From NCBI GenBank assembly GCA_019636515.1, contig JAHBXI010000002.1, positions 186,001 through 250,000 of the forward strand: DNA of 64,000 nt, written 5' to 3'. Source of the DNA: Phycisphaeraceae bacterium (GTDB lineage Bacteria; Planctomycetota; Phycisphaerae; Phycisphaerales; UBA1924). Below, piece by piece: positions 41,721 to 45,117 of this stretch (positions are counted from its first letter, which is position 1; every line of letters begins with the position of its first letter). The notes under the pieces were generated by a model that ran no database searches, was not told the origin of the DNA, and was given only the letters and a program-made list of their open reading frames with translations. A program made the position numbers and the translations under genes.

Positions 41721-42440
41721 ATGAAGAACGTTCTTGCAGTCCTCGCGGTCGCCGGCCTCGCCTCCACGTCGATGGCGAACCACGGCGTGGTGCTCCAGGT
41801 CTCCCTGGATAACTCGGCCTGGTTTGACAACATGAGCGTCCCGATGACGACCGACAAGGTCTTCGTCCGCGTGATCATGAACATCCCGGACCAGTACCAC
41901 GGGATCTCGGGCGCCCGCTACAACATCACCTCGCTCCCGGGCGAGTGGGATGTCGGCGGCAACGACTCGATCGACTTCACCCCCGGCAAGGGCAGCGCGA
42001 CCGACGGCCGCCTCGCGGGCTTCGACTTCGGTGGCCAGACCCAGGTGGTCTTCGAGACGGGCAACCAACTCCGTATCGACGCCAAGGGTGACACGGGCAA
42101 CAACCCCAACGCCGGTATCTCGACCTCGCAGAACACCCCCGGCGCCCTGGGCACCAACTTCAACACCGGCAAGTCCGTCGTGGTCTACAAGTTTGCCGTC
42201 AACCTCCACACCAACCGCAACGACGGGGACAAACTGACCCTCCGGATCATGGACGGCGGCGAGAACGGCTCCCCCGACCAGATCACGTCCTTCAAGGTCT
42301 ACGAGAACTCGGGTTCAACGGCCGGCATCCAGGTCGATGATGAGACGGGCGGCACGTCCGTGATCACCTTCGTCCCGGCTCCGGCTTCCCTCGCCCTCAT
42401 CGGCCTGGGTGGCCTGGCCGCGGCCCGCCGTCGCCGCTGA
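41721..42440 (+). CDS. Exported PEP-CTERM-like protein, 240-aa family, copy 2
   Basis: 239 aa. It has a signal peptide 1-19 ending S-M-A, then the same domain as copies 1 and 3: D-Q-Y-H-G-I-S-G-A-R-Y-N-I, G-K-G-S-A-T-D-G-R-L-A-G-F-D-F-G-G and G-I-S-T-S-Q-N-T-P-G-A-L-G-T-N-F-N. Nucleotides 42075-42167 are identical to 44194-44286 of copy 3. The tail F-V-P-A-P-A-S-L-A-L-I-G-L-G-G-L-A-A-A with R-R-R-R is the sorting signal. AGGAGATTGAG gives a strong ribosome-binding site, and a strong terminator follows. Function unknown. Confidence 0.82.
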   Translation: MKNVLAVLAVAGLASTSMANHGVVLQVSLDNSAWFDNMSVPMTTDKVFVRVIMNIPDQYHGISGARYNITSLPGEWDVGGNDSIDFTPGKGSATDGRLAGFDFGGQTQVVFETGNQLRIDAKGDTGNNPNAGISTSQNTPGALGTNFNTGKSVVVYKFAVNLHTNRNDGDKLTLRIMDGGENGSPDQITSFKVYENSGSTAGIQVDDETGGTSVITFVPAPASLALIGLGGLAAARRRR

Positions 42441-42509: not shown

Positions 42510-42574
42510 CTTGGCCATTCGCGTGAGTGTTGATCGCGCTCGACCCCCCTTGATTGTCGCGGTACCCTCCGGGC

Positions 42575-43570
42575 ATGTCGTTACCCACCGACGCGGCCGT
42601 TCCCGGTCCCGCCATTGCGAGAGTTGTCCCCGAAGCGTCCCTGATTGACTGCATGGGCGGCTCTTCTCGGTGGGAGGTCAAGGTCCACGAGCACGGATTC
42701 CTCGCCCTGCTCGACGTCATGCCGCGGCTGATCCCAGGGGGGATGACCGTCGATTCCGCCGTCGTGCAGGCCGCCCGGGTTTCCTATGGCCAGGGAACCA
42801 GGCAGGTCCATGAAGACCGCGGCCTGATCCGCTACCTCCTGCGGCACCGCCACACCACGCCCTTCGAGATGGTTGAATTCAAGTTCCACGTGGCGATGCC
42901 GATCTTTGTCGCTCGCCAGTGGATACGCCATCGGACGGCGAGCGTCAACGAGTACTCCGCCCGTTACTCCATACTTCCGGATCGCTTTTACGTCCCTCCG
43001 CTGGAGGCCATCCGGAAGCAGTCGGCCTCCAACCGCCAGGGAGGCGAGGAGGTCTTCAACGTTCTCGCCGGTGTGGGGGGGGAGGCCCCCGATGCCAGGG
43101 ATGAACTGCGCACCGCCGAGGATTTTCTGGCGTACCTCCGGGACGTGGAGGGGTACTACGCCCGCTATCTGGCACTGGCGGAAAAGGGCGTCAGCCGCGA
43201 ACTGGCCAGGATTGGTCTTCCCGTCAACATGTACACCGAGTGGTACTGGAAGTGTGACCTGCACAACACGCTGCGATTCCTGAGCCTCCGTCTCGATTTG
43301 CACGCCCAGGCGGAGATCCGCGCGTACGCCGCCGCCATGCACTCCCTATTATCCGAACTTATTCCGTACACCCTGGAGGCATGGAGGGATTACGAGTGGG
43401 AATCGATGCGCCTGTCCCGTCTGGAGATCGAGGCGGTTCAGCGGTGGCGGGCCGGTGGATCCCTTGAACTGGAATCCTCGAACGCCCGTGAGCGTGCCGA
43501 ATGGCGGGCAAAGTCCGAAACTCTCGGCTTCACGGATTCCAAACAAACAACTCCGGAAGGAACCCGTTAA
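42575..43570 (+). CDS. thyX: FAD-dependent thymidylate synthase
   Basis: 331 aa, longer than the common 220-250 and similar to the long ThyX forms. It methylates dUMP with methylene-THF and reduced flavin, replacing ThyA. The ThyX motif is intact as R-H-R-T-A-S-V-N-E-Y-S-A-R-Y-S near residue 116, preceded by H-T-T-P-F-E-M-V-E-F-K-F and Q-W-I-R. The C-terminal part has L-R-F-L-S-L-R. TACCCT (42563-42568) ends 6 nt before ATG 42575 and no Shine-Dalgarno is visible, so the message is probably leaderless. It sits between two PEP-CTERM-like paralogs with no other folate gene nearby. Confidence 0.95.
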   Translation: MSLPTDAAVPGPAIARVVPEASLIDCMGGSSRWEVKVHEHGFLALLDVMPRLIPGGMTVDSAVVQAARVSYGQGTRQVHEDRGLIRYLLRHRHTTPFEMVEFKFHVAMPIFVARQWIRHRTASVNEYSARYSILPDRFYVPPLEAIRKQSASNRQGGEEVFNVLAGVGGEAPDARDELRTAEDFLAYLRDVEGYYARYLALAEKGVSRELARIGLPVNMYTEWYWKCDLHNTLRFLSLRLDLHAQAEIRAYAAAMHSLLSELIPYTLEAWRDYEWESMRLSRLEIEAVQRWRAGGSLELESSNARERAEWRAKSETLGFTDSKQTTPEGTR

Positions 43571-43729
43571 GGATACCGCCTCGTATGCGCACGAGGTAGA
43601 TAACGGTGATTTCCACCATCAAATCTCAAAAACAACGGGAACCAACGGCGTTCGGCTGCGGAAAGCATGTGGATTTGCCGCGCGAGGTCTGGGGTTCGCA
43701 TTTTTTGCGATTCCGCGCGGAAAATACCC

Positions 43730-43758
43730 TTGCAACTTGCCGCGATCGCCCGTATCCT
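43730..43758 (+). promoter_or_regulatory. Promoter of PEP-CTERM-like copy 3
   Basis: TTGCAA, exactly 17 bp, TATCCT. The expected transcription start near 43765 gives a 75-nt leader with its own GAGGAG, in contrast to the leaderless housekeeping genes. The 150 bp before it are AT-rich. Confidence 0.65.
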
Positions 43759-43839
43759 CTGGGTGGGTCAGGTGAACTCGTTTCCGCAGGGTTTCACCTT
43801 TGTTTCCGTGTTTGCATTTTTCATAGTGAGGAGATTGAC

Positions 43840-44559
43840 ATGAAGAACGTTCTCGCATTGATCGCCGTCGCCGGCCTGGCTACGGCCGCTTCGGCCCAGT
43901 CGAAACTGGACCTGGTCTTCTCGACCGATTCGGGCACGACCTGGTTTGACAACGTCAACGTCACCCCCGGCTCGACCGTGTGGGTTGGCGTCATCATGAG
44001 CATCCCGACGCAGTACTACGGGATCTCCGGCGCCCGCTACAACATCGTGTCGAACAACGGCCAGTGGGACATCGGCGGCAACGACACGACCGATTTCACC
44101 CCCGGCAAGGGCAGCGCGACCGACGCCCGCCTCGCCGGCTTCGACTTCGGTGGTCAGACCCAGGTCGCCTTCGAGGCGGCTGGCAGCCTCCGCATCGACG
44201 CCAAGGGTGACACGGGCAACAACCCCAACGCCGGTATCTCGACCTCGCAGAACACCCCCGGCGCCCTGGGCACCAACTTCAACACCAACAAGTCGGCCCT
44301 CGTCTACCGCTTCGCCGTCAACACGCACGGCGGCCGCCCCGGCGCCGGCGAGCAGTTGATCTTCCGGATCGAGGACGGCACGTCGGGCGTGAACCAGATC
44401 ACGTCCTTCAAGGGCTACGAGACCAGCGGTTCGACCTCGGGCTCCGACATCCTCGGCGGCGTCGAGGGTGATACCGGCACGATCACCTTCGTTCCGGCTC
44501 CCGCCTCGCTGGCCCTCGTCGGTCTCGCCGGCATCGCCGCCGGCCGCCGCCGCCGCTAA
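43840..44559 (+). CDS. Exported PEP-CTERM-like protein, 240-aa family, copy 3
   Basis: 239 aa. The signal peptide (1-19, ending A-S-A) is followed by the family domain with V-T-P-G-S-T-V-W-V-G-V-I-M-S-I-P, Y-G-I-S-G-A-R-Y-N-I and G-K-G-S-A-T-D-A-R-L-A-G-F-D-F-G-G. Its tail F-V-P-A-P-A-S-L-A-L-V-G-L-A-G-I-A-A-G then R-R-R-R matches the other copies. It shares a 93-nt identical block with copy 2. ATG 43840 follows GAGGAGATTGAC and a recognisable promoter at 43730. Function unknown; all three copies are probably surface-anchored. Confidence 0.82.
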   Translation: MKNVLALIAVAGLATAASAQSKLDLVFSTDSGTTWFDNVNVTPGSTVWVGVIMSIPTQYYGISGARYNIVSNNGQWDIGGNDTTDFTPGKGSATDARLAGFDFGGQTQVAFEAAGSLRIDAKGDTGNNPNAGISTSQNTPGALGTNFNTNKSALVYRFAVNTHGGRPGAGEQLIFRIEDGTSGVNQITSFKGYETSGSTSGSDILGGVEGDTGTITFVPAPASLALVGLAGIAAGRRRR

Positions 44560-44749: not shown

Positions 44750-44778
44750 TTGCTTCGGATCGAGCGATCGCCGATAGT
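44750..44778 (+). promoter_or_regulatory. Promoter of the super-Shine-Dalgarno cassette
   Basis: TTGCTT, exactly 17 bp, GATAGT. With the terminator at 45085 it defines a transcript of about 330 nt. Confidence 0.5.
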
Positions 44779-44979
44779 ATTGTGTCGGAATCCCGAGGCG
44801 GCGCGGCGAGCGTGAACCCACGTTCCCGGCCGAGGTCGGCTCCGGCGTCGGGAGGCGGCCGAATCGCGACGGCACTTCCCGTCACGTGCCCCGGGCGACG
44901 GCCCTGGGCGGAAAGAGGTCGGCGGCGGGGCGTCACCCCCGCGGCGGCTGACGGGTCTCTTTCAGAAGGAGGTGATCCA

Positions 44980-45018
44980 GTGTTGATTTCTGACTGTATG
45001 AAGGGCCTGCGCTGGTAA
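44980..45018 (+). CDS. 12-codon mini-ORF with near-complete anti-Shine-Dalgarno match
   Basis: GTG-initiated peptide M-L-I-S-D-C-M-K-G-L-R-W and stop. Its start codon follows a 16-nt stretch (44964-44979) that would pair with essentially the whole 3' tail of 16S rRNA; the GGAGG core is 7 nt from the GTG, an optimal distance. No homology is recognised. Extending the frame upstream to 44719 gives a low-complexity Arg/Gly-rich sequence with no support. purB begins 183 nt downstream, beyond a terminator and with its own -10. Confidence 0.45.
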   Translation: MLISDCMKGLRW

Positions 45019-45084
45019 ACGCGGCTCGACGGAGCCGCGAAGCGCGGCCCGGTACGCAGACCCTGTACGATTGATGCGTACACG

Positions 45085-45117
45085 CCGGCGGTCCCTGACG
45101 GGTCCGCCGGTTTTTTT
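45085..45117 (+). terminator. Rho-independent terminator of the mini-ORF cassette
   Basis: Arms CCGGCGGTCCC/GGGTCCGCCGG (10 of 11 paired), loop TGAC, then seven T. Confidence 0.9.

Follow-up and report, generated by a model that had tools for sequence, protein, structure and literature searches.

Trp-type attenuators combine a strong Shine-Dalgarno (SD) sequence with an open reading frame (ORF) of about 14 codons whose stop codon lies amid complementary segments. They end in an intrinsic terminator, and the released RNA can act in trans, as does rnTrpL of Sinorhizobium, a liberated trans-acting attenuator RNA. The mRNA-like domain of tmRNA (ssrA) is likewise structured, with a pseudoknot beside a short ORF and a stop codon in or near a helix, and is present in one copy per genome. 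Dual-function small RNAs (SgrS/SgrT, RNAIII/hld, Spot 42) are stand-alone regulatory RNAs that also contain a short translated ORF, and in the ribosomal-protein mRNA pseudoknots of rpsO/S15 and the alpha operon/S4 the fold encloses both SD and start codon, with early coding sequence as a pairing partner. To our knowledge, few regulatory RNAs have been described from Planctomycetota.

The locus described here lies in a 64,000-nucleotide stretch of DNA from a Phycisphaeraceae bacterium (the window, by which we mean the whole stretch analysed). Comparative sequence analysis indicates that its SD block, its micro-ORF and its hairpins together form a single stand-alone RNA gene, which is conserved across Planctomycetota. 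Unlike trp-type attenuators, this RNA is associated with no biosynthetic operon or any conserved downstream gene, has a putative promoter of its own and a constitutive-looking terminator clear of the switching stems, and encodes no run of one regulatory amino-acid codon in its micro-ORF; its SD and start codon lie inside a predicted pseudoknot with ORF codons. Unlike tmRNA, it lacks a tRNA-like domain and uses a conventional SD and start codon, and the true tmRNA is found elsewhere in the genome. In contrast to the dual-function small RNAs, its ORF is part of the conserved fold, its peptide is not conserved between families, and its SD is a complete anti-SD complement; in contrast to the rpsO/S15 and alpha operon/S4 pseudoknots, no ribosomal-protein gene follows and the RNA is not cis-regulatory.

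The elements of the locus are listed in Table 1. The preliminary description had proposed a promoter-to-terminator cassette around a 12-codon ORF, and on inspection of the sequence all of its elements were found where it had placed them, including the hairpin behind the stop codon, which begins 1 nt past it. Absent from that description are a pseudoknot that joins the P2 loop to ORF codons, the mutual complementarity of four segments near the stop codon, and the occurrence of the RNA across the phylum.

Table 1. Elements of the RNA gene and of its flanking signals, with positions in the window.
Feature	Position	Strand	Basis
Sigma-70-like promoter pair, TTGCTT / 17 nt / GATAGT	44750-44755, 44773-44778	+	Sequence; layout recurs in homologs
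Predicted transcription start	~44785	+	Position estimated
Variable 5' domain, GC-rich hairpins and conserved cGACGaC-type motif	44785-44880	+	Alignment of 20 relatives, weakly aligned here
Stem-loop P1, GCCCCGGGC-GACG-GCCCTGGGC	44888-44909	+	Compensatory changes, 20 close and 51 wide sequences
Stem P2	44918-44952 (44918-44923/44947-44952 and 44925-44929/44938-44942)	+	Covariation, 20-sequence set
Possible P2 extension in the window's genus, GAAAGAG / CTCTTTC	44911-44917 / 44957-44963	+	By eye
P2 loop, pseudoknot 5' strand GTCA	44932-44935	+	Matched versus permuted loop/ORF pairs, 126 homologs
SD block AAGGAGGTGATCCA, complement of the mature 16S rRNA 3' tail	44966-44979	+	Own 16S end; duplex energy
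Micro-ORF, GTG start, 12 codons MLISDCMKGLRW, TAA stop	44980-45018	+	Start, frame and stop in 126/126 homologs
Pseudoknot 3' strand TGAC, within the ORF	44991-44994	+	Same loop/ORF permutation tests
Helix P3, a GGGCCTGCGC (last ORF codons) : d GCGCGGCCC	45003-45012 : 45042-45050	+	Covariation
Hairpin b:c inside P3, loop GACG	45020-45039 (45020-45027 / 45032-45039)	+	Covariation
Small hairpin TACGCA...TGCGTA between P3 and terminator	45053-45080	+	Fold; sequence not conserved
Intrinsic terminator CCGGCGGTCCC-tgac-GGGTCCGCCGG-T7	45085-45117 (stem 45085-45110)	+	Sequence

DNA counterparts of positions 44886-45050 were found in more than 20 relatives. A covariance model built from 20 sequences, including the window's own, detected the RNA in 129 of the 397 class genomes searched, and almost every one of these has a single copy. 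When 392 genomes of the phylum were searched with a wider model under strict filters, 40 matched and 352 did not; the matches include ten families from outside the class, and the out-of-class homologs that were read have the same layout. Carriers include many Phycisphaerae metagenome-assembled genomes (MAGs), one Gemmataceae MAG and the isolate Tautonia sociabilis. As a control, 33 genomes from outside the planctomycetes in which the 13-nt block occurs were searched, and none gave a match to the RNA. The preliminary description had made its case depend on the presence of block, ORF and hairpins in relatives, and all three are conserved there. A copy of the window-family type is also borne by a MAG labelled Deltaproteobacteria (JAJCZP010000298.1), probably on a mis-binned contig.

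The 3' end of the 16S rRNA, read from the 16S gene of the window's own genome, is TGGATCACCTCCTT / TGGATCACCTCCTTTCT. A complement of about 16 nt to this tail had been proposed; the block is indeed present, and its contiguous run is 14 nt, the leading AG adding nothing. This run occurs once in the window. The energy of its duplex with the 16S tail is −26.3 kcal/mol, compared with −15.9 kcal/mol for the best of the 42 genes predicted in the window with every candidate start allowed, which bears out the claim that no other gene there has so strong a site. Only two of the 4858 start-like triplets in the window reach −26.3, and these are the overlapping GTG and TTG of the site itself. Across the class AGGAGGTG is nearly invariant; the 16S tail is invariant among the genomes read, which leaves no room for covariation between block and tail. 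In single-sequence folds, the predicted openness of the block is slightly above that of the rest of the RNA (0.39 vs 0.33). Guiding of the rRNA precursor is not favoured, because conservation of the block covers the mature tail AAAGGAGG and goes no further: the 3' spacer complement CTTAGAAAGG is not part of it. An origin as the antisense strand of a 16S gene was also rejected, as an Rfam scan found no rRNA in the window.

Such a block might act as a ribosome sponge or brake, in which the RNA mainly sequesters free 30S subunits by 13-14 nt of tail pairing while the ORF clears or holds the subunit, a role like that of 6S RNA with ribosomes as the target. A sponge or sensor for 30S subunits was among the functions first suggested, and the conservation of the SD fits it. 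The block spans the whole single-stranded tail, is nearly invariant and lies far above every other SD in the window, and no 6S RNA exceeded the Rfam cut-off in 13 genomes (the window's own and 12 relatives). However, a pure sponge needs neither a conserved ORF frame and stop nor early codons that pair with the P2 loop, and by itself it leaves the frame-locked start, stop and spacing unexplained; moreover, some homologs shorten the pairing, for example to AAAGGAGGTGTTT in L127 and AAGCGAGGTG in L073, while the 16S tails read stay unchanged. On this balance, a sponge seems to us rather unlikely.

The micro-ORF that had been proposed appears genuine. A start codon stands right behind the SD in all 126 distinct homologs (103 GTG, 17 ATG and 6 TTG), and an in-frame stop follows after 6-33 codons, with a median of 11. 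Because the start codon was used in locating the ORFs of this set, the frame statistic outweighs the start count: the distance from the start to the GCTGC of helix a falls into one modulo-3 class at 79 of 92 loci (mostly 20, 23, 26 or 29 nt), and differences in ORF length among homologs preserve the reading frame. In one clade the stop codon lies upstream of helix a.

Within the window's family the peptide follows the strongly conserved pattern xDC[TM][KR]GLRx, and elsewhere the peptides are clade-specific (M(E/D)xGxCTRWLL, xxxxIGxL[LP], MxGDKP, MTHCDCKCGLL, MCSSDNQRRLA). In family f6 (L071 and L110) an in-frame extension has lengthened the micro-ORF to 32-33 codons, and the peptide is Cys-rich (MIELCTPRPGGKCCCGDSCDGNCCCGRKRIGLR and a relative). 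The locus could accordingly be a micro-peptide gene, as had also been suggested, or a dual-function RNA, yielding a product of 6-33 amino acids at a high rate, such as a cysteine peptide serving metal or thiol chemistry. Conservation within the window's family, the occurrence of Cys in 91 of the 126 peptides and the two in-frame Cys-rich versions are consistent with such a product. Yet other families share few or no residues with it (MVGTIGELL, MQGDKP, MTSESKKLL), and since the peptide is conserved within but not between families, whose ORFs range from 6 to 33 codons, a single phylum-wide peptide function is unlikely. In addition, the ORF codons are engaged in RNA pairing, and Cys is almost always encoded by TGT (124 TGT and 18 TGC over all homologs) despite the preference of the window's genes for TGC (79%, against 21% TGT), a bias that suggests nucleotide-level constraint on the ORF. 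We consider the peptide an unlikely reason for the existence of the gene.

Compensatory changes were found in P1, P2 and P3 among the 20 close sequences, which include the window's own. In the 51 wide sequences, 91.8% of P1 cells were paired and all 4 of its pairs had changes on both sides. When P1, a:d and b:c were taken together, 90.4% of cells were paired and 83 cells carried double changes, compared with 30.5 after shuffling (0 of 500 shuffles); this signal collapses in the slid controls. Covariation in the hairpins flanking the block and ORF, raised earlier as a possibility, was found for a:d and b:c in the close and wide sets. Mutual complementarity among a, b, c and d allows an alternative arrangement, a:b plus c:d, which pairs 89% of cells, with little covariation beyond that of the primary pairing. 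Folded without a ribosome, 117 of 126 homologs have their final ORF codons paired with sequence past the stop. When a ribosome was modelled at the stop, the freed strand was predicted to re-pair downstream in 104 of these 117, a figure for GC-rich sequence that stands without a shuffled control. As in an attenuator, a short ORF with its SD and stop codon lies amid stems that are predicted to be mutually exclusive. The P1 and P3 loops and the 5' domain of homologs repeatedly contain a GACG(G) motif (other clades have GAACGTGG), which may be the binding site of a common partner.

The P2 apical loop complements the opening ORF codons, a pairing that was assessed over 126 homologs. Matched loop/ORF pairs scored 10.84 on average, compared with 8.82 (sd 0.18) when the ORFs were permuted (reached in 0 of 5000), although the permutations leave some within-group relatedness in this statistic. 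At least five Watson-Crick pairs were formed in 52 matched cases, compared with 21.4 on permutation (maximum of 32 in 2000). Matched exceeded permuted scores within each of five peptide groups, where the observed value was attained by 0 to 144 of 5000 permutations. Scores were at background level when loops were reversed or later codons were used. The signal comes from the apical loop; a test that took in all of P2 carried no information, being dominated by GC-rich stems. A stronger argument for this covariation-supported pseudoknot than these permutation statistics is the many different sequence solutions: CUGGUUA:UAACCAG (L198), GGACUUC:GAAGUCC (L288, L302), UCACUC:GAGUGA (L064, L125), ACCACC:GGUGGU (L128), ACAGUC:GACUGU (L002) and CGUACAG:CUGUACG (L035). 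The window's own pseudoknot has only 4 bp, GUCA:UGAC. The SD and start codon fall between P2 and the 3' strand, and so inside the pseudoknot span.

Of 121 homologous loci, 38 have a promoter-like pair and 60 a perfect-stem terminator; shuffled sequences gave 4.3 and 0.4, respectively. The recurrence of both in relatives is consistent with the independent transcription unit envisaged in the preliminary description. In the window, purB (adenylosuccinate lyase) is co-directional and starts 84 nt past the T-run, which, with the attenuator-like combination of SD, short ORF, alternative stems and terminator, might point to a leader or attenuator that acts in cis on the gene behind it. However, the downstream neighbours vary among genomes (purB, a peptide-release-factor domain, a sigma factor, MobA-like and cohesin-domain proteins among others) and are convergent at 10 of 21 loci, by simple longest-ORF gene calls that make single assignments rough; the conserved downstream gene of an attenuator is thus missing. 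The terminator also sits beyond the switching helices. Since the neighbouring genes vary and are often convergent, we conclude that the RNA is not a leader; the ribosome-stalling leader suggested earlier finds no place here, and regulation of purB in cis is very improbable. In three genomes from two families (L159, L162 and L163), the gene immediately upstream of the RNA resembles an ABC-3 type metal permease, an assignment tested with Pfam for L163.

No Rfam 15 family reached its gathering threshold at the locus or in 20 diverse homologs, and the matches at the locus under a relaxed E-value (CC2171, Xoo2 and others) were far below the cut-off. One structured copy per genome is also what a divergent housekeeping RNA such as tmRNA or RNase P RNA would give; the genome (G000) nevertheless has both elsewhere, a tmRNA at G000:C3:487585-487937 and an RNase P RNA (RF00010) at G000:C1:900507-900923. 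The window itself contains no RF00023 match and no ARAGORN tmRNA, nor an RF00013 match for 6S RNA. A chance origin is excluded by conservation, and we regard the chances of a disguised housekeeping RNA or a fortuitous sequence, taken together, as close to negligible. Literature searches yielded no description of such an RNA in the papers searched. We rate it as an RNA of a new class, its conservation, ORF and fold being well supported by the comparisons of homologs.

We tentatively propose, with slightly less than even confidence, that the locus encodes a free-standing RNA of ~330 nt, probably trans-acting, whose shape would depend on the loading of ribosomes and on their translating the micro-ORF. 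Without ribosomes, the RNA would take a closed form comprising the pseudoknot and helix a:d. Capture of a 30S subunit via full pairing with the 16S tail would open the pseudoknot, and the ribosome would then translate the 6-33 codons and stop between a and b; with a removed, d would pair with c instead. The RNA would in this way report or use ribosome loading and the translation of its own ORF, in the manner of a trp-type attenuator that has been detached from any gene downstream. The 30S sponge and the micro-peptide gene remain the main rivals to this ribosome-gated reading. More doubtful is its extension to a phylum-wide gauge of ribosome supply, in which free 30S subunits and the pseudoknot would compete for the complete anti-SD complement and translation of an expendable micro-ORF would toggle two forms, acting in trans on translation or on gene expression.

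The RNA has the look of a device by which the ribosomes of the cell are read or used, and not of a sequence that arose by chance. It would be a new kind of ribosome-facing RNA, near single-copy and phylum-wide, built on the ribosome's mRNA-binding tail, and the membership of its micro-ORF codons in the fold is part of what would be new. Because isolates such as Tautonia sociabilis carry the RNA, the question of how free ribosomes could be measured by a cell is testable by standard methods.

The region upstream of the locus holds two closely similar secreted-protein-like ORFs (41721-42440 and 43606-44559, both +) whose ends are almost the same (TFVPAPASLAL..., PEP-CTERM-like, then a run of arginines). 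ARAGORN calls a tRNA-Gly(GCC) on the opposite strand within the second of these (44034-44116, −), where the Rfam tRNA model is silent, and the call is probably a false positive. Between the two PEP-CTERM-like ORFs lies a ThyX-like ORF (42554-43570); these family names were assigned by reading.
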